This document shows positions 51,016-64,000 of a stretch of 64,000 bases of DNA, one piece after another (positions within the stretch are counted from its first letter, which is position 1; the number at the start of each line of letters is the position of its first letter). This DNA is from Massilia sp. METH4 (GTDB lineage Bacteria; Pseudomonadota; Gammaproteobacteria; Burkholderiales; Burkholderiaceae_D), in assembly GCF_037094685.1 (NCBI RefSeq), contig NZ_CP146614.1:3534001-3598000 (forward strand), in the 5' to 3' direction. Position numbers and translations under genes: made by a program. The notes under the pieces are model-generated. The model was not told where the DNA came from. It did not search any database and worked only from the letters and a program-made list of their open reading frames with translations.

Positions 51016-52549
<1,534 letters not shown>

Positions 52550-52639
52550 GAGTAGGCACTGACCGCAAGGTCGTGCATCAAACGCTCACACTTATCGACT
52601 GTCGAATGAAGAAGAAACAGTAGCACCGCAAGATCATGC

Positions 52640-52716
52640 GGGTCTGTAGCTCAGCTGGTTAGAGCACCGTGTTGATAACGCGGGGGTCGTTGGTTCGAGC
52701 CCAACCAGACCCACCA
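52640..52716 (+). tRNA. tRNA-Ile (GAT)
   Basis: 77 bases including an encoded CCA. Acceptor stem GGGTCTG / CAGACCC, T-arm GGTTCGAGCCC, anticodon GAT at 52674-52676. In the 16S-23S spacer, as usual. Confidence 0.97.
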
Positions 52717-52736
52717 CGTATTGCACAGAAATCCCT

Positions 52737-52812
52737 GGGGGATTAGCTCAGCTGGGAGAGCACCTGCTTTGCAAGCAGGGGGTCGTCGGTTCGATCCCGT
52801 CATCCTCCACCA
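52737..52812 (+). tRNA. tRNA-Ala (TGC)
   Basis: 76 bases with encoded CCA; anticodon TGC at 52770-52772, T-arm GGTTCGATCCC. Second spacer tRNA. Confidence 0.97.
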
Positions 52813-53024
52813 AAAAGCTTAAACGTAAGCGTGACGAGTTCACATTTATGTTTAGTCTTTTAGAGACTTAAGCTGTTTCGTTCTTTAACAATCTGGATGA
52901 AGTAAAGTTTTATTAAGCGTGGATCGAAAGATTCACACTTAGGGTAGTGTTCGAAAGAACGCATACAAAAACTCATCAAGCACAGTAGTAAATGCATTTG
53001 AAGCTATAGCCGTCAAGGTTATAG

Positions 53025-55902
<2,878 letters not shown>

Positions 55903-56025
55903 TAACCTTGACGGTTGTATTTAATTTTTCAGTGCATTTACTCTTGATGAGTGACCCAAAACTTTACTGAATCCAGATTGAGCAGTAGCGTCGCCCTGTA
56001 GCGGGACGATACTGCGTACAAGTCA

Positions 56026-56140
56026 TGCCTGATGACCATAGCAAGTCGGTCCCACCCCTTCCCATCCCGAACAGGACCGTGAAACGACTTTGCGCCGATG
56101 ATAGTGCTGCAACCAGTGTGAAAGTAGGTTATCGTCAGGC
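56026..56140 (+). rRNA. rrf: 5S ribosomal RNA
   Basis: 115 bases from TGCCTGATGACCATAGCAAG to TTATCGTCAGGC; the ends pair. CCATCCCGAACAGGACCGTG is the typical loop B/C region. Confidence 0.95.
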
Positions 56141-56356: not shown

Positions 56357-56708
56357 TTTGCGCGTCGTAAGACAAAACCCAGCCCACAAGCAATCCCCGG
56401 GGTCCGACCCGGCGGGGCGTAGCGGTGCGGGCATGCATGCCCGTACTCTCTCCTGACCCCGGCTCTTGCCGTTGGGGTTGGATTCAAAGCTTGCGGCCTG
56501 CCAGCGAATCCTAGAAACACGGCAGGGCTATTGTCGTTTTGGTACCGGTAGCTCGAAAATACCCGTCACGCGCTGCTCACATCCCTGCGAATACCTGTTG
56601 CTTAAATGTTGTTAATATCGCTCTCGATATTCTGATGACTGCCCAAAATCAATTCTCGAGCCCGGTTTCACGGTAAGCTCTGCATTTTTGCAACTGCAGG
56701 GCATCGAC
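56357..56708. other. Intergenic region downstream of rrn
   Basis: 352 bases without a gene. It includes a palindromic GCGGGCATGCATGCCCG at about 56428-56444 and an AT-rich stretch before the next gene (TGTTGTTAATATCGCTC). No clear promoter motif can be assigned. Confidence 0.45.
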
Positions 56709-58409
56709 ATGATTCGCAACTTCCTCGCCGCGGCCGCTGCCGCGTTTACGACGTTCGCCAGCGCTGCGGAGTCGACGAGGAGCCCATCACCGGCCGGGTT
56801 GAAAGGTGCACTGGAGTCGGAATCGATCGGCCTGCTGCCCGCCGGGAGCATGCGGCTCAATACCGGTAAATGCGGCGATTGCACGGCGCCGAAACAGGGC
56901 CTCTGGTACTTCGAGAACGAATTGATCGGCATACCAGGTGCGGGTGCGGCGGTATCGGGTTTCACCGCCGGTGTCGACAGGAAAGCCGATGTGCGAAACT
57001 GGGCGGCAACGCAGCATGCGGGAAAGCTGGCTTATCCGTCCCTGGTGTGGATCGGCGCCCCGAGCATCCTCGAAGGCGCGGTCATGCTGCCGGGCGGCCA
57101 GCGGGTGCGCACTGCGGACGGCAGCGAACTCGACATGAAGCTCGTTCCCAAGATTTCCACCAACCTGTCATATGCGAACGAGGCCACTGCCGCCTACTTT
57201 TCTGGGCGCGAAGTCCGCATGCGGGGGACCTTGAACAGTGCGGCTGGGAAGGATGTCTTCGTGGCCCGTACGATCTGGCCCAGCGATTTTGCTCTGGACC
57301 CGGCGCAGCTGCAAAGTGCACCCCTGCGCCAGCCCGCCGACCTGGCCGCCTTCGTGCGCGAGCCGGTCAAGGAAGGCCGCGGGATCGAAACACGCTTGCT
57401 GTGGGAACGGCATCCCGGCAAGACGCGCGACTGGAAGCAAAAGCCCGTGCTGGCATTCGTGCTGAACGGGGCGCAAGGCGACGACGACGAATCGCTGGGC
57501 GGACATTTCGCCGTTGCCACCGGCCATATCGGCGCGCGGGCCGAATGGCACGACTGGGCCGTCAATAATTTCTACAACCTGGATTCGTTCAGCGAAAAGG
57601 GCATCGTCGCCGCGACGCTTCCCATGGACAGCTACCTGATGGACTTGAACAGCGGCCAGCAGTACTACCGCCCGTCCTATATGCTGGTCGCAGTCCTGAA
57701 CAACGAACGTGCGGCGGTCGCATTCCAGGGCGGCGTGCAGCGCGTCTTCAACCAGCTGTACCGCCATGATTTCCAATACCGCCACGCCAGCGCCAACTGT
57801 GCCGGCATCAGCGTGGACGTGTTCGACTCGCTCGGCTGGCAGCTTCCCAAGCGCGGCCCGACCGCCCCGTTGAAGTCCCTGGCGGCCTATACCTATATCG
57901 CGGCCAAGGATGGCAGCTTGCAGGCCGGCCGCAAGATCTATGATTACCTGAACGAAGAGCAAACCCGCCTGTTGCCTGCGGTGGCGTTCGAGGCCGCCGG
58001 GCTGGACCTGCTGGAAATTATCGGCGGCGACGACAAGCAACGCCGCTTGAGCGCCTACGAGCAGCAGCTCAAGAGCGATATCGAAGCCATCATCCTGGTG
58101 CGCATTCCGCAAGTGCCGTCCAGCCGCGTAATGGGCTCGGCTCCGGTATTCTCGTTCGACGAATTCCGCGCGCGGGTTCCCGAGAACCAGGCAGACTGGA
58201 AGGTCGTGCCGGTCGCCGCCCGCCCATTTCCGGCGGCACTGCGCGACCCCGCGAGCGCGGTGGAGGCCGAACCGTCGCCGGTCCCGTTGCCGATCGCCGG
58301 CATCGGCCTGTGCGGCGTGCTGGGGGCGCTCCTGCTTTGGCGGCGCAAGGCCAGGAAGAAGCACGCCGGCAAGCCGGCCGCCCCGGCGACTAAAGAACTG
58401 GTGCATTGA
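56709..58409 (+). CDS. Exported protein with PEP-CTERM-like tail and possible permuted papain-type domain
   Basis: 566 residues. Signal peptide IRNFLAAAAAAFTTFASAAE. The middle contains GGHFAVATGHIG (about 275-285) and ANCAGISVDVFDSLGW (about 369-384). A His before a Cys in such strands resembles permuted NlpC/P60-like hydrolases (DUF4105 and related families), but this is inference. The C-terminus PSPVPLPIAGIGLCGVLGAL plus WRRKARKKHAGK looks like a VPLP/PEP-type exosortase signal. The start is the ATG at 56709; a start seven codons earlier is less likely. Converges on the VWA gene. Confidence 0.72.
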   Translation: MIRNFLAAAAAAFTTFASAAESTRSPSPAGLKGALESESIGLLPAGSMRLNTGKCGDCTAPKQGLWYFENELIGIPGAGAAVSGFTAGVDRKADVRNWAATQHAGKLAYPSLVWIGAPSILEGAVMLPGGQRVRTADGSELDMKLVPKISTNLSYANEATAAYFSGREVRMRGTLNSAAGKDVFVARTIWPSDFALDPAQLQSAPLRQPADLAAFVREPVKEGRGIETRLLWERHPGKTRDWKQKPVLAFVLNGAQGDDDESLGGHFAVATGHIGARAEWHDWAVNNFYNLDSFSEKGIVAATLPMDSYLMDLNSGQQYYRPSYMLVAVLNNERAAVAFQGGVQRVFNQLYRHDFQYRHASANCAGISVDVFDSLGWQLPKRGPTAPLKSLAAYTYIAAKDGSLQAGRKIYDYLNEEQTRLLPAVAFEAAGLDLLEIIGGDDKQRRLSAYEQQLKSDIEAIILVRIPQVPSSRVMGSAPVFSFDEFRARVPENQADWKVVPVAARPFPAALRDPASAVEAEPSPVPLPIAGIGLCGVLGALLLWRRKARKKHAGKPAAPATKELVH

Positions 58410-58439: not shown

Positions 58440-59585
58440 TCAGACGTGGACGATGCCCGCCCCGGCTGCCCACTGTTCCAGGTCCTCGCGCTTGATCGCC
58501 GCCGCCATCAGCTCGGGGAACAGGTCGGGAGTGCAGGCAAAGCACGGTGCTCCCATCGCCACCAGTTGCGCCGCATTGTGCTTGTCGTACGAGGGTGCCC
58601 CCTTGTCGTCCAAGGCCAGCAGCACGATGAATTGCACGCCGCTGGCGATCATGGCCGCGGCGCGCTTGAGCATTTCTTCGTTACGCCCGCCTTCGTACAA
58701 GTCGCTGATCAACACGAAAATCGTATCCTTCGGCCGCCTGACCAGGCCCTGGCTGTAGGCCAGCGCGCGATGGATGTCGGTACCCCCGCCCAGCTGGGTG
58801 CCGAACAACACCTCGACCGGGTCCGACAGCAATGGCGTCAGGTCGACCACGGCGGTATCGAACACGACGACCGAGGTGCTGACGGCCTTGATGCTGGCGA
58901 GCACGGCCGCAAACACGCTGGCATAGACCACCGAGGGCGCCATCGAACCGCTCTGGTCGATGCACAGCACGATGTCGCGCAGGGACCGGCCCTTGCGGCC
59001 AAAGCCGATCCGCGTCTCCGGAATGATGGTCTGGTAGTCCGGCTGGTAGTGCTTCAGGTTGGCGCGGATCGTGCGCATCCAGTCGATCTCGTTATGGCGC
59101 GGCCGGCGGTTGCGCGTTGCCCGGTTGAGACTGCCCGTGACGGCCTGGCGCAAGGGACTGGCCAGCTTGCTCTCGAGCTCGCGCACCACCTTGCTGACGA
59201 CCGCCCGTGCGGTGCTGCGCGTCTTGTTCGGCATGATGCGATTCAGGCTCAGCAGGGTAGCGACCAGGTGCACGTCCGCCTCGACCGCCTCCAGCATTTC
59301 GGGTTCGCACAGCATCCGCTGCAGGCCGAGCCGATCGAGCGCATCCTTCTGCATGACTTGCACGACCGTGGAAGGAAAATACTGGCGGATGTCGCCCAGC
59401 CAGCGCGCCACGTTCGGCGCCGAGGCGCCCAATCCTCCACGCGGCGAGCCCGGCTCGCCGCCATACAGTGCGTCGAGCGCCCGGTCCATCGCCAGGTCGC
59501 TGGCCGACAGGGGCGTGTCGACGGCGCCGCCGAGCACGAGGCGCCAGCGGCGCACGGCTTCCGCCGGGTCGAGATCATTCGCCAT
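58440..59585 (-). CDS. VWA-domain protein of the MoxR/DUF5682 cluster
   Basis: A 381-residue cytosolic protein. Residues 1-190 are helical without recognised domain; residues 200-375 form a von Willebrand A domain with MIDAS motif DQSGS (210-214) and GGGTD (266-270), so it should bind a metal and a partner. This layout is like CoxE/YehP-type VWA proteins that work with MoxR ATPases. It is the last gene of the operon and overlaps DUF5682 by 11 bases. The partner or substrate is unknown. Confidence 0.85.
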   Translation of the reverse strand: MANDLDPAEAVRRWRLVLGGAVDTPLSASDLAMDRALDALYGGEPGSPRGGLGASAPNVARWLGDIRQYFPSTVVQVMQKDALDRLGLQRMLCEPEMLEAVEADVHLVATLLSLNRIMPNKTRSTARAVVSKVVRELESKLASPLRQAVTGSLNRATRNRRPRHNEIDWMRTIRANLKHYQPDYQTIIPETRIGFGRKGRSLRDIVLCIDQSGSMAPSVVYASVFAAVLASIKAVSTSVVVFDTAVVDLTPLLSDPVEVLFGTQLGGGTDIHRALAYSQGLVRRPKDTIFVLISDLYEGGRNEEMLKRAAAMIASGVQFIVLLALDDKGAPSYDKHNAAQLVAMGAPCFACTPDLFPELMAAAIKREDLEQWAAGAGIVHV

Positions 59586-61842
59586 GGATTACCTCCCGCG
59601 CCGTGGCGCTGCCGAATAGGGTTGCCAATACCGGCAAGACGCGGCGTGCGCGATCCCGGTCGATTGCCTGCGTGCTGTCAACGGACGACACCTTCGTCCC
59701 GGCCGCGCCGGCACTGGCGCGTTCGGCCAGCTGGCGCCGTTCCGGCGCCGCGAAGCTGCCGAACGTGCGGCGCAGCAGCGGCAGCAGTTCGACAAAGGTC
59801 TCCGGAGGCAGCGACAGCACCCAGCCATTGATCGCATGCCACAGCTCGTCGTTATGAACCAGCAGCGTGCCGCTGCCCTGCAGGAAGCCTTCCAGCCACT
59901 GCGCGGCCGCCACCGGTGCCACCGCGCGCGAGCACAGCAGGAGCAGGTGGCGCGAGGCCTCGTCCATGGGCCAGTGGCGCTGTTCCGCGAGGATGCGCAC
60001 CGCCCGCCCGGCCAGCAGCGGATGTGTCGCTTCGCTGCGTGCGCCAGCCTCCAGCGCCGCAAACCAGGCAGCGCCGTGCTCATCATGCTGCAGCAACCGG
60101 ATCGCGGTGTCGCCGGCGATGAGCTGTACGAGCAGTTGGGCGGCAGCCTCGTCGGCTATGCCCCGCACGCCGAAGGGGAGGGCGACGCAGGCACGCGCGA
60201 CCAGGCCGTCGACCACGCTCGCCAGCGCCGCCGTGTCGGTGCCGCGCGCGCTGCCGTAACGCAGCACGTTGACCAGCGGTGGCAGGGCACCCAGCAAAAA
60301 GCCAGGATCGGCGGTATGCGCGCTCGCTTCCTGGATGCGCGTCATCAATGGCGCCACGGCGGCGCGCAAGTCGGCGAGCAGTACCTGTTCCATCAGGCCA
60401 GTCAGCGCGGGAAGGTCGGCAATCGCCGCGCCACGGCTCACCGCGCACGCAGTGGCGGCCTCTTCCACCGTGGAACCCCACACGCTCGCTTCGATCAGGC
60501 GGATCGCGAACTCGGGCTCCCACGCCAGGCGCCACAGTTCATGAAAGGTGCCGCTCTTGCCGCGCACGACCTGCCGGCTGCCCCAGGCGATACCGAGCAT
60601 GCCCAGCCGGTGGAGCACCACGCTTTTCTCGAGGTGCGCCGGCTGACGCAGGTCCAGGTCGAGATCGAGGCTGTCGGCACGCACCGCCATGCGCAGCCGC
60701 TTTTGCTGGGCTTGCACGTCCTGGACCAGCGGCAGGGTCGGCACCGAGGCCGGCACTTCGCCCAAGCGGTCGTCGATCAGCAGTTCGCGCCGGATCAGCT
60801 GCAGCGGCAGCTCGCAGTCGTAGCAGAATACCGCGCGTACAGCCTCCATCAGTTCATCGAGCCCGGCGCGCGGGCGGTCGCGCAGTGCCGCCAGTGTGTC
60901 CGCAAGGCGCGCGGCCTCGATGATGTGCGCCGAAGAGGCGTCCAGGTCGTGCCGGCGCAGCAGCGTCGCCACGCTGGTCAGCCAATGCAGGCTGGCTTGC
61001 TCGCGATGGTTCCACACGTGCTGGTACCAGCCTGGCGCGGCCACCCCGGCGCCATAGCCGCTGGCAAAGGTAAGCCGGCCATAGCTCCATGGCGTCCAGG
61101 TGGCGGCCAGCTTTTCCTTCGGCAGCCCCTTGAGCAGATCGTTGTCGCTTTTCGCCGTCGGCATGCGCGCCAGCGCGGGCACGTGCCAGGCGCCGCATAC
61201 CACCGCGATGCGCTGGCAGCCCTGTTTTTCCGCGGCCCGGATCATGTTGCGCATGTATGCTTCGCGGCGCAGCTCCTGGATATCTTCCTGAGCGGCGGTT
61301 TGCTCGCGCACGGCCGTCATCATTTCCGCGATCGCGGCAAACAGGTCGAGGCTGTCGCTGCGCTGCTCCACCAGGTGGTCCCACCAGGTCTCGGTGTCGC
61401 TGAAGCCCGCTGCTTCGGCGATCCATGCCAGCGGGTCGGCGCGCAGGCGCGGCGCGTCCCCTTCGTCGCCCGGCTCTCCGCCGGTGCCGACGTCAGCGCT
61501 TTCGCCTTCGCCTGGCGCGGGCGTTTCAGCGAGCCGATGGCCTTGCGGCAGATCGCACCATCGCACCGGCACGGCATGCGCGTTGGCGTAGCGGATGGCC
61601 TGCCACTCCGGCGAGTATTCGGCGAATGGATAGAATACGGCGCGCTGCGGCGCAGCCGGCGCATAGACCAGCAGGGCGCAGGGCGGCTCCAGCCCCGGTT
61701 CGCCGACGTGGGCCAGCAGAGCGTCCGCTTCGGGCGGGCCTTCGACAAGGATGCAATCGGGCCGCAGCGCATGCAGCGCATCGAGCAGGCTGCGCGCGCA
61801 GCCGGGCCCATGGTGGCGGATGCCGAACAGGTGTACGCTCAT
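59575..61842 (-). CDS. DUF5682 protein, possible TraB/Tiki-like hydrolase
   Basis: A 755-residue cytosolic protein. I recognise DUF5682 from the start HLFGIRHHGPGCARSLLDAL and ILVEGPPEADALL. Three sites look like the TraB/Tiki/EreA-type superfamily: a GxxH-like first motif (GIRHH, residues 7-11), Glu in VEGPPE (34), and a later REAYMRNMI followed by RIAVVCGAWHVPAL (GAWH, 217-220). These proteins bind metal or act as hydrolases. The remaining 500 residues are helical and not recognised. It lies between the AAA gene (12 bases upstream) and the VWA gene (overlap). Confidence 0.82.
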   Translation of the reverse strand: MSVHLFGIRHHGPGCARSLLDALHALRPDCILVEGPPEADALLAHVGEPGLEPPCALLVYAPAAPQRAVFYPFAEYSPEWQAIRYANAHAVPVRWCDLPQGHRLAETPAPGEGESADVGTGGEPGDEGDAPRLRADPLAWIAEAAGFSDTETWWDHLVEQRSDSLDLFAAIAEMMTAVREQTAAQEDIQELRREAYMRNMIRAAEKQGCQRIAVVCGAWHVPALARMPTAKSDNDLLKGLPKEKLAATWTPWSYGRLTFASGYGAGVAAPGWYQHVWNHREQASLHWLTSVATLLRRHDLDASSAHIIEAARLADTLAALRDRPRAGLDELMEAVRAVFCYDCELPLQLIRRELLIDDRLGEVPASVPTLPLVQDVQAQQKRLRMAVRADSLDLDLDLRQPAHLEKSVVLHRLGMLGIAWGSRQVVRGKSGTFHELWRLAWEPEFAIRLIEASVWGSTVEEAATACAVSRGAAIADLPALTGLMEQVLLADLRAAVAPLMTRIQEASAHTADPGFLLGALPPLVNVLRYGSARGTDTAALASVVDGLVARACVALPFGVRGIADEAAAQLLVQLIAGDTAIRLLQHDEHGAAWFAALEAGARSEATHPLLAGRAVRILAEQRHWPMDEASRHLLLLCSRAVAPVAAAQWLEGFLQGSGTLLVHNDELWHAINGWVLSLPPETFVELLPLLRRTFGSFAAPERRQLAERASAGAAGTKVSSVDSTQAIDRDRARRVLPVLATLFGSATAREVIHGE

Positions 61843-61854
61843 CGTCGGCGGGAA

Positions 61855-62946
61855 TCAAGCCATCACTTCACGGCAAGCGCGGTACAGGTCCTTCCAGCCG
61901 TCGCGCTCCTTGACCACCGTTTCAAGGTATTCGAGCATGACCACGCGGTCCTGGATCGGGTCCTTGACGATCGCGCCGACCATGCCGGCCGCGAGGTCCG
62001 CGCCGCGCAGCACCCCATCGCCGAAATGGGCGGCCAGCGACATTCCGTGGGTGATGACGGAAATTGCTTCGGCCGTGCTCATGCTGGCACTGGGCGCCTT
62101 GATCTTCACCTTGCCGTCGGCCGTGACGCCTTCGCGCAGCTCGCGGAACACGGTGACGATGCGGCGGATTTCCTCGAGTGCCGGCAGCTCGCCCGGCAGT
62201 TCGAGCGCGCGGCCCATGCTGGCCACGCGCGTCTGCACGATGCGCACTTCCTCGTCCGCGGTGCGCGGCGGTGGCAGCACGACGGTGTTGAAGCGGCGCT
62301 TCAGCGCGCTCGACAGCTCGTTGACGCCGCGGTCGCGGTCATTCGCCGTGGCGATGATGTTGAAGCCTTTCTGGGCCTGTACTTCGTCGTCGAGTTCTGC
62401 GATCGGCAGCACTTTCTCGGAGAGGATCGTGATCAGGCTGTCCTGCACTTCGCCGGCGATGCGCGTGAGCTCTTCGACGCGTGCGATCTTCCCTTCGCGC
62501 ATGGCGCGCATCACCGGGCTGGCCACGACCGCGTCGAGCGAGGGGCCTTTCGAGAGCAGTTGCGCGTAGTTCCAGCCGTAGCGCACCGCCTCTTCGCCGG
62601 TGCCGGCGGTACCTTGCACCACGAGGGTCGAGTCGCCGCTGATGGCTGCCGCCAAGTGCTCGGACACCCAGGACTTGGCGGTGCCCGGCACACCCAGCAG
62701 GAGCAGGGCCCGGTCGGTCGCCAGGGTCGCGACGGCGATCTCGATGACGCGGGGATTGCCGATGTACTTGGGGCTGATCTCGAAGCCGTTGTCCAGTTTT
62801 CCGCCCAGCAGGTAGGTCGAAACCGCCCAGGGCGACATCTTCCAGCGCGGCGGGCGCTGGCGCTTGTCGCAGGCGATCAAGGCTTCCAGCTCGGTCGCGT
62901 ACTGGGTTTCGGCGTGCTGGCGAAGAACGGTGCTGCTTGCGGTCAT
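61855..62946 (-). CDS. MoxR-type AAA+ ATPase
   Basis: A 363-residue AAA+ ATPase: Walker A GVPGTAKS (85-92), sensor-1 IIATANDRD (197-205) and arginine finger LKRRF (215-219). The Walker B equivalent reads IARVEEL (154-160), with Glu-Glu instead of the usual Asp-Glu, an unusual variant. MoxR ATPases act as chaperones that mature or remodel partner complexes, generally with VWA proteins. ATG at 62946 overlaps the DUF5691 stop by four bases; the longer open frame is rejected. Confidence 0.88.
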   Translation of the reverse strand: MTASSTVLRQHAETQYATELEALIACDKRQRPPRWKMSPWAVSTYLLGGKLDNGFEISPKYIGNPRVIEIAVATLATDRALLLLGVPGTAKSWVSEHLAAAISGDSTLVVQGTAGTGEEAVRYGWNYAQLLSKGPSLDAVVASPVMRAMREGKIARVEELTRIAGEVQDSLITILSEKVLPIAELDDEVQAQKGFNIIATANDRDRGVNELSSALKRRFNTVVLPPPRTADEEVRIVQTRVASMGRALELPGELPALEEIRRIVTVFRELREGVTADGKVKIKAPSASMSTAEAISVITHGMSLAAHFGDGVLRGADLAAGMVGAIVKDPIQDRVVMLEYLETVVKERDGWKDLYRACREVMA

Positions 62947-64000
62947 GCGGGCTCCTGGAATGAAAGGATCATCTCGTGGCGGAAACGCACGAGGTGGAAA
63001 AATTGATCGACCGGGCCTTGCCAGCCGTGGGGATCGTCCGCCAGGCCCGGCCACGGGCGCGCGGCATCGAGGACCGCGAACGGGTCGAGAATCGCAGCCA
63101 GCGAGAGCAGGGCCGAACGGAAGGTCCATTGCTGGGTTGCCAGCGCAGGCAGGCCGGCGAGCAGGCGCCGCGTGATCGCGTGCGACAGCTCCGTGGGCCA
63201 TGGTGCCGGCGTGGTTGCCGCCAGCTGATGGAGCAACTCGACCAGCGGAGCATCGGCGGCTTGCCAGGGCGTGTGGCTGGCTTCCACGAGGTTGAGCAGC
63301 ATGGCGTGCATGGCGGGTGGCGGCAAGGCGGTGTACGCCCCCACAAAGGCAGAGGCATTCTGGTAGCGCACCGCGCCGCCCGTCTTGAGCCAGGTGCGCG
63401 CCCATGCGTCGAGCCAGGCGAGGAGGCCTGGGGTGGGGGCGTGCGCCAGGTGCAGCTGCAGGGCGTTCGTCCAGCCGAGCAGCAGCGCTTCCTGGTAGTC
63501 CGTGTCGGCACTCCGGGCAATGCACTCGTCCGGCGCAAGGTTCAGCGACGCCGACCAGTGCGAGGGATCGATCGCCGACAGCACGTCGACCAGCCAGCCC
63601 GCCTTCTCGCCCAGGCCCGGATGTTTCACCTCTCCGATACCGTCGCGTATCATCGCCGCATCGCGCTCCGCCGGCGGCGTGACGGCCAGGCGGGTACCTC
63701 GCAAGAAGCGCTTTTCGAGCTGCAGCAGGGGCGCCGCGCGTGCGATCATCCGTTGCCCCAGCTGCGATCCGGGCAGGCTCGCCAGCAAGCGCTGCGCAGC
63801 CTGGCGCACGGCTTTCCTGCGGTCGTCCAGCGCAGCTTCCAAAAAGGCTTCGTCTGCCCCCTGGAGGCCGATGCGTAGGCAAAGCAGCAGGGCGGCGCGG
63901 TTCTCCGGCGGCTCGGCGGACCAGGAAGATTGCAGGGCTGCGCGGGCGGCGGCCGGGTCCACGCGCCGCCAGGCTTCGAATGCCGCGACACGTTGTTCGA
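62943..64000 (-). CDS. DUF5691-like protein, partial (N-terminus outside window)
   Basis: At least 350 residues; the reading frame stays open to the window edge. A helical, Leu/Ala-rich protein with HEAT-like stretches (RKAVRQAAQRLLASLPGSQLGQRM) and a C-terminal segment VDQFFHLVRFRHEMILSF. I recognise it as DUF5691 from its neighbours and general pattern, not from a catalytic motif. First known gene of the operon; it is coupled to the AAA gene by a four-base overlap. A SWIM zinc-finger gene is often found upstream in similar clusters (from memory), but here that is outside the window. Confidence 0.72.
   Translation of the reverse strand, partial: EQRVAAFEAWRRVDPAAARAALQSSWSAEPPENRAALLLCLRIGLQGADEAFLEAALDDRRKAVRQAAQRLLASLPGSQLGQRMIARAAPLLQLEKRFLRGTRLAVTPPAERDAAMIRDGIGEVKHPGLGEKAGWLVDVLSAIDPSHWSASLNLAPDECIARSADTDYQEALLLGWTNALQLHLAHAPTPGLLAWLDAWARTWLKTGGAVRYQNASAFVGAYTALPPPAMHAMLLNLVEASHTPWQAADAPLVELLHQLAATTPAPWPTELSHAITRRLLAGLPALATQQWTFRSALLSLAAILDPFAVLDAARPWPGLADDPHGWQGPVDQFFHLVRFRHEMILSFQEPA

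Follow-up and report, generated by a model that had tools for sequence, protein, structure and literature searches.

A 64,000-nucleotide stretch of Massilia sp. METH4 (contig NZ_CP146614.1, 3,534,001 to 3,598,000), referred to throughout as the window, ends in a compact operon (58440..64000) whose upstream end was read in a 19 kb stretch spanning the window edge (L002). The genes run in the order SWIM-DUF5691-MoxR-DUF5682-VWA (Table 1) and all five open reading frames are intact. An earlier reading made from the letters of the window alone (the sequence-only reading) had placed four genes on one strand, joined by 4-base or 11-base overlaps and a 12-base gap, had assigned them to the VWA, DUF5682, MoxR ATPase and DUF5691 families, and had proposed looking beyond the edge for a SWIM zinc-finger gene. 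The coordinates agree with it: all four genes lie on the minus strand, DUF5691 and MoxR overlap by 4 bases, 12 bases separate MoxR from DUF5682, and DUF5682 overlaps VWA by 11 bases. Pfam returns the same four families (the part of DUF5691 inside the window scores 255 bits by itself), and the SWIM gene is present, overlapping DUF5691 by 4 bases.

Table 1. Genes of the operon, in order of transcription, with their Pfam scores
Gene product	Position	Strand	Pfam match
SWIM zinc-finger protein (445 aa)	L002 10536-11873 = window-equivalent 64535-65872, outside the window		SWIM, 21.5 bits (cut-off 19.6)
DUF5691 protein (531 aa in full)	62943..64000, continuing to window-equivalent 64538	-	PF18944, 385 bits (full-length gene)
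MoxR-type AAA+ ATPase (363 aa), P-loop GVPGTAKS	61855..62946	-	AAA_5, 126 bits
DUF5682 protein (755 aa), predicted TIKI/TraB-fold domain and helical HEAT-like solenoid	59575..61842	-	PF18934, 875 bits
VWA_CoxE-type protein (381 aa), intact MIDAS (DQSGS, GGGTD, D)	58440..59585	-	PF05762, 180 bits

Compared with a relative (locus L112), the ratio of non-synonymous to synonymous substitution rates is 0.14 for SWIM, 0.23 for DUF5691, 0.07 for MoxR, 0.17 for DUF5682 and 0.09 for VWA. An antisense frame of 1,056 residues (59836-63006, plus strand) lies opposite MoxR and DUF5682 and is probably spurious, as is common in GC-rich genes.

Genome contigs were scanned with an alignment of DUF5682, which gave at least 581 confirmed stretches. 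The best-scoring 80 were kept as the locus set, a choice that favours the window's subtype and its close relatives, and profiles derived from the window's own proteins served to call families at these loci. All five families share one strand in 67 of the 80 loci, which rules out a chance grouping of the genes; 63 of these loci have separate genes, while in four the SWIM and DUF5691 proteins form a single reading frame that keeps its SWIM motif intact. The remainder includes five loci cut by contig ends and seven without at least one partner (L034, L036, L044, L078, L082, L091 and L101). At L099 a fused frame carries part of the SWIM protein only and no Cys-His motif. Possession of all five families does not equate to strict adjacency, as other frames separate MoxR from DUF5682 in L071 and L075 and a DUF4132 gene precedes VWA in L079. 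Frames of about 245 residues, with no Pfam family, also stand between MoxR and DUF5682 in L043 (4073-4801) and L105 (8722-9456). By our reading of the record names, the loci with the set come from about eleven phyla, namely Pseudomonadota, Cyanobacteria, Chloroflexota, Bacteroidota, Planctomycetota, Verrucomicrobiota, Acidobacteriota, Armatimonadota, Deinococcota, Desulfobacterota and Actinomycetota. The five-gene unit is therefore real and widely conserved, as the sequence-only reading had stated for its four genes, and its five-gene form shows across these phyla that SWIM belongs with DUF5691.

Within the window's phylum the distribution is patchy, DUF5682 being present in 11 of 249 genomes. 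Five of these carry the window's subtype (above 700 bits), the other main matches scoring about 330-370 bits, and one genome (G196) has both. DUF5691 exceeds its cut-off in exactly the five genomes with window-subtype DUF5682; two more genomes, lacking DUF5682, have a DUF5691 match of 19-20 bits, below the cut-off. In the window's own genus, DUF5682 occurs in 12 of 60 genomes, six each of two types (A and B, defined below) by score and none with both. Separately, one locus (L027, G246:C1:3523518-3523715) has a distinct 504-residue frame that matches only positions 23-88 of DUF5682, at 19.3 bits, below the cut-off.

Comparison of gene order around DUF5682 across genomes, a check put forward with the sequence-only reading, confirms that the genes co-occur and resolves them into two architectures: type A, SWIM-DUF5691-MoxR-DUF5682-VWA, to which the window belongs, and type B, DUF4132-MoxR-DUF5682-VWA-SWIM, which includes Escherichia coli. 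Of 14 type B loci, 13, that of E. coli included, have a DUF4132-family frame, and 12 have a frame containing the SWIM Cys-His motif after VWA (L024 is cut by a contig end and L026 is differently ordered). Pfam, applied to two of these frames, confirmed SWIM in E. coli YehQ and not in L022. At six Bacteroidota type A loci a frame of the DUF4132 cluster adjoins VWA, two being confirmed by Pfam; a search of the window's own genome found no DUF4132.

In E. coli K-12 the genes yehL, yehM, yehP and yehQ encode MoxR, DUF5682, VWA and SWIM proteins, clustered on one strand as in the window. The order, however, is MoxR-DUF5682-VWA-SWIM, with yehI/yehH beside it, and the SWIM protein is longer. The E. 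coli DUF5682 (YehM) is a distant subtype (570 versus 1,049 bits to the family profile), and the set has no DUF5691 match and is accompanied by a DUF4132 gene, which is absent from the genome of the window. The five-gene unit is thus a sister of the yehLMPQ set, and a new form of MoxR-VWA systems with a predicted effector of the TIKI/TraB fold. The suggestion that the gene set had gone undescribed does not hold, since this sister set exists in K-12 and YehL gives its name to one of seven published MoxR subfamilies (PMC3893208; this and the papers cited below are drawn on in excerpt). E. coli K-12 has two MoxR proteins, RavA and YehL, and RavA has been characterized (PMC3893208). Among 5,426 E. 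coli genomes, yehM is found in 5,284; in 5,166 the match covers 80% or more of the gene. In one strain (NZ_CP137737.1, 1867916-1871259) the yehM match is split in two, and an IS5-family transposase is annotated beneath it.

A genome-reduced E. coli strain lacks the stretch from molR to yehQ (PMC10652928), and a stretch containing yehL and yehM is missing from two lineages of Shigella sonnei (PMC12795559); the yeh set is therefore dispensable. In the literature searched, which mostly omits subscription papers, the excerpts give no function for the set or for YehL, YehL/M/P/Q are named jointly only within lists of deleted genes, and no paper names DUF5682. Matches to SWIM, MoxR, VWA and operon in combination contain, in excerpt, nothing on this set, and none of the matches listed links MoxR, TraB and SWIM. 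yehQ was among the genes tested in a study of butanol tolerance (PMC6442406), the available passages of which hold no result for it.

The two motor proteins retain the motifs expected of them. The window's MoxR protein has the P-loop, the Walker B acidic pair and the sensor asparagine of AAA+ ATPases; the P-loop GxPGTAK[S/T] is kept in 86 of 87 relatives, and R-x-EE and ATAN are at least 95% conserved in the same 87. Among solved structures, the chains of Midasin and NorQ are closest to it in sequence. The Pfam family bpMoxR is matched weakly by 24 of 26 MoxR rows (one of the 26 being misread), and the window protein, at 26.6 bits, falls below the cut-off (27). In the VWA protein the columns of the metal-ion-dependent adhesion site (MIDAS; DQSGS, GGGTD and D) are conserved to 95% or more across 85 relatives. 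In MoxR-VWA pairs elsewhere the VWA protein is said to capture a peptide, and ATP to be used to reshape the client (PMC7159879). The motifs kept in both proteins support the earlier proposal that these may form such a chaperone-type pair. SWIM domains are known to bind zinc, and the motif of the 445-residue protein reads CSCPSRKFPCKH. In the partner proteins Pfam finds DUF5682, DUF5691 and SWIM only.

The AlphaFold model of DUF5682, with a predicted local distance difference test score of 90.2, comprises on structure comparison a TIKI/TraB-fold domain (residues ~1-235) and a HEAT-like helical solenoid (~395-714). Residues H10, E34, R193 and H220 are invariant in the DUF5682 alignment; they form a signature (xxxH, E, RxxxM, H) whose order and spacing nearly equal those of the catalytic His, Glu, Arg and His in five TraB/PrgY proteins compared. 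The Pfam scan of DUF5682 detects no TraB/TIKI family, and a search of its sequence against solved structures gives no match (best E value 0.57), nor did two single TraB proteins match any solved chain in the same way. Profile comparison with hhalign reaches a best probability of 3% (E 0.014) against TraB, where the esterase-TraB positive control itself gives 0.5-1%, and 1.1%, below one control, against erythromycin esterase; the TraB profile held 26 rows, some not in the intended frame, eight of which were removed in a later comparison. Searched against solved chains, the TraB profile ranked designed armadillo proteins (E 0.055) above TraB chains, which we take as repeat artefacts. ChaN and erythromycin esterase, other families of the TIKI fold, are not among the 50 structure-comparison rows listed, which excludes nothing. 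Taken together, the model and the invariant residues indicate that the N-terminal domain of DUF5682 very probably adopts the TIKI/TraB fold and carries the catalytic signature that goes with it.

Conceivably the fold is kept but catalytically dead, in which case the set would be a chaperone for remodelling in general and DUF5682 the scaffold that binds its substrates. One TIKI-superfamily protein does lack the catalytic set (PMC6254334), and a large part of DUF5682 is the helical solenoid. However, 34 of the 56 invariant columns among 84 sequences fall within the first 290 of 755 residues, the signature included, and we regard a dead enzyme as quite improbable.

The sequence-only reading had left the choice between "a protein-maturation or stress/conflict system". 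The resemblance of the N-terminal domain of DUF5682 to TIKI/TraB-fold hydrolases allows a sharper proposal. On the simplest reading the client of the MoxR-VWA pair is the protein encoded between them, DUF5682, and this client is a hydrolase. We propose that all five proteins make up a single ATP-driven machine, to which we give a probability of about 0.45. By analogy with other MoxR-VWA pairs, a MoxR hexamer and its VWA_CoxE co-factor would bind DUF5682 through the MIDAS of the VWA protein and would use ATP to reshape it, either by metal loading or by opening of the active site. DUF5682 would be the effector, its predicted hydrolase domain, most likely a peptidase or an esterase, being carried on the HEAT-like solenoid, and SWIM and DUF5691 would jointly serve as an adaptor or sensor through which the target is brought in. 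A bolder version, in which the set represents an ATP-dependent hydrolase of a new class, most probably proteolytic, with a MoxR-VWA ring regulating a TIKI/TraB-fold peptidase in trans, SWIM-DUF5691 as the targeting adaptor and a sister form unrecognized in nearly all E. coli (yehLMPQ), is speculative and in our view doubtful.

The genes flanking the loci were scanned with PADLOC and Pfam, one gene per side, giving 110 of up to 160 flanks; the scan covered frames of 100 to 700 residues that lie wholly within the contig, chosen by length rather than by a gene finder. This bears on the idea that the set is a metal- or cofactor-insertion chaperone, in which MoxR and the CoxE-like VWA protein load a metal into a client located elsewhere in the cell, in the manner of NorQ-NorD and CoxD-CoxE, while DUF5682, DUF5691 and SWIM act as scaffold and metal-binding helpers. 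The CoxE type of the VWA protein, the place of NorQ among the nearest solved chains of MoxR, the zinc binding of SWIM domains and the DUF4132 (MolR-type) gene beside most type B sets would all fit such a role. NorQD drives metal insertion (PMC13036017), molR was reported in 1990 to be needed for molybdate use (known to us through citing papers), and yehM is among the genes mutated in copper-exposed E. coli (PMC12409786), which is a hint. Against this, no metalloenzyme family recurs among the 25 of 84 flanking Pfam families listed, the window's own genome is without DUF4132, and the invariant His/Glu/Arg/His set of DUF5682 is left unexplained; metal insertion thus appears rather unlikely.

The same scan, together with the distribution of the set, addresses the possibility that the set is a MoxR-vWA ternary system serving in anti-phage defence or another conflict, where SWIM-DUF5691 would sense a trigger and the DUF5682 hydrolase would then be unleashed. 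The peculiar P-loop variant GXXXTAKS of the FtsH and beta-propeller ternary systems (PMC7159879) resembles the GxxxTAK[S/T] found here, and the weak bpMoxR matches and the patchy spread within phylum and genus point the same way, as do several different PADLOC systems among the flanking genes. In all, 37 PADLOC families were matched, the 25 listed each by one protein, so that no family recurs among those listed, and most of the 25 flanking Pfam families listed belong to metabolism, transport or regulation. No PADLOC family matches the four window proteins (the scan covered all of the operon but SWIM), and yehM is near-universal in E. coli. The family is also nearly absent from phages, with one relative in 50,697 phage records and none among 47 pattern stretches in an IMG/VR scan, and is rare in plasmids (36 of 72,556 records). 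We consider a conflict role improbable. The listed flanks likewise show no recurring defence neighbour, which is weak evidence against a defence-island location. The phage relative (MT835988.1, 10584-12758), in a 14 kb "Bacteriophage sp." record from human faeces, covers 96% of DUF5682 at 29% identity, and the record is possibly a bacterial contig rather than a phage.

Control by the SOS or DNA-damage response was also considered. A DUF4132 gene is induced on DdrO depletion in Deinococcus (PMC8533742). At the E. coli and window loci, LexA-like sites (CTGTN8ACAG) were found with one mismatch only and at chance level, and the idea was therefore dropped.

Two co-directional ribosomal RNA (rRNA) operons enclose the operon (window 51016-56140 and L002 12398-17506, window-equivalent 66397-71505), which therefore lies between direct repeats of ~5 kb. 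Among relatives, rRNA is found on both sides in L112 and at both contig ends in L030, L031 and L028 end in 5S rRNA, and L029 has none. Recombination between such repeats could lead to loss of the operon and account for its patchiness. A convergent frame of 573 residues (window 56688-58409, plus strand) has no Pfam match; it ends in a hydrophobic stretch followed by basic residues, which, judged by eye, looks like a sorting signal.

The predicted TIKI/TraB-fold hydrolase domain of YehM and its candidate active-site residues make the role of YehL and its neighbours directly testable in a laboratory strain. Should the hydrolase prove real, a further type of enzyme would join the clients or partners known for MoxR-VWA pairs. 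DUF5682 resembles the TraB/PrgY and TIKI/erythromycin-esterase hydrolases in predicted fold (residues 1-232) and signature, yet the likeness is missed by Pfam and weak in profile comparison, and the domain is joined to a large solenoid and linked with a MoxR-VWA motor. The operon shares with NorQ-NorD and CoxD-CoxE a MoxR AAA+ protein with a VWA partner, but has no client metalloenzyme gene and has DUF5682, DUF5691 and SWIM in addition. We know of no DUF5682, SWIM or DUF5691 partner of the RavA-ViaA pair of E. coli. That pair likewise joins MoxR to VWA, and belongs to another MoxR subfamily (PMC3893208). The MoxR-vWA ternary conflict systems (PMC7159879), the main text of which makes no mention of SWIM, YehL, TIKI or TraB, are alike in combining MoxR and VWA with a dedicated third protein and in their P-loop; they differ in that their third protein is of the VMAP, iSTAND, FtsH or beta-propeller kind, none of which Pfam finds in the partners here, where that place is taken by DUF5682.
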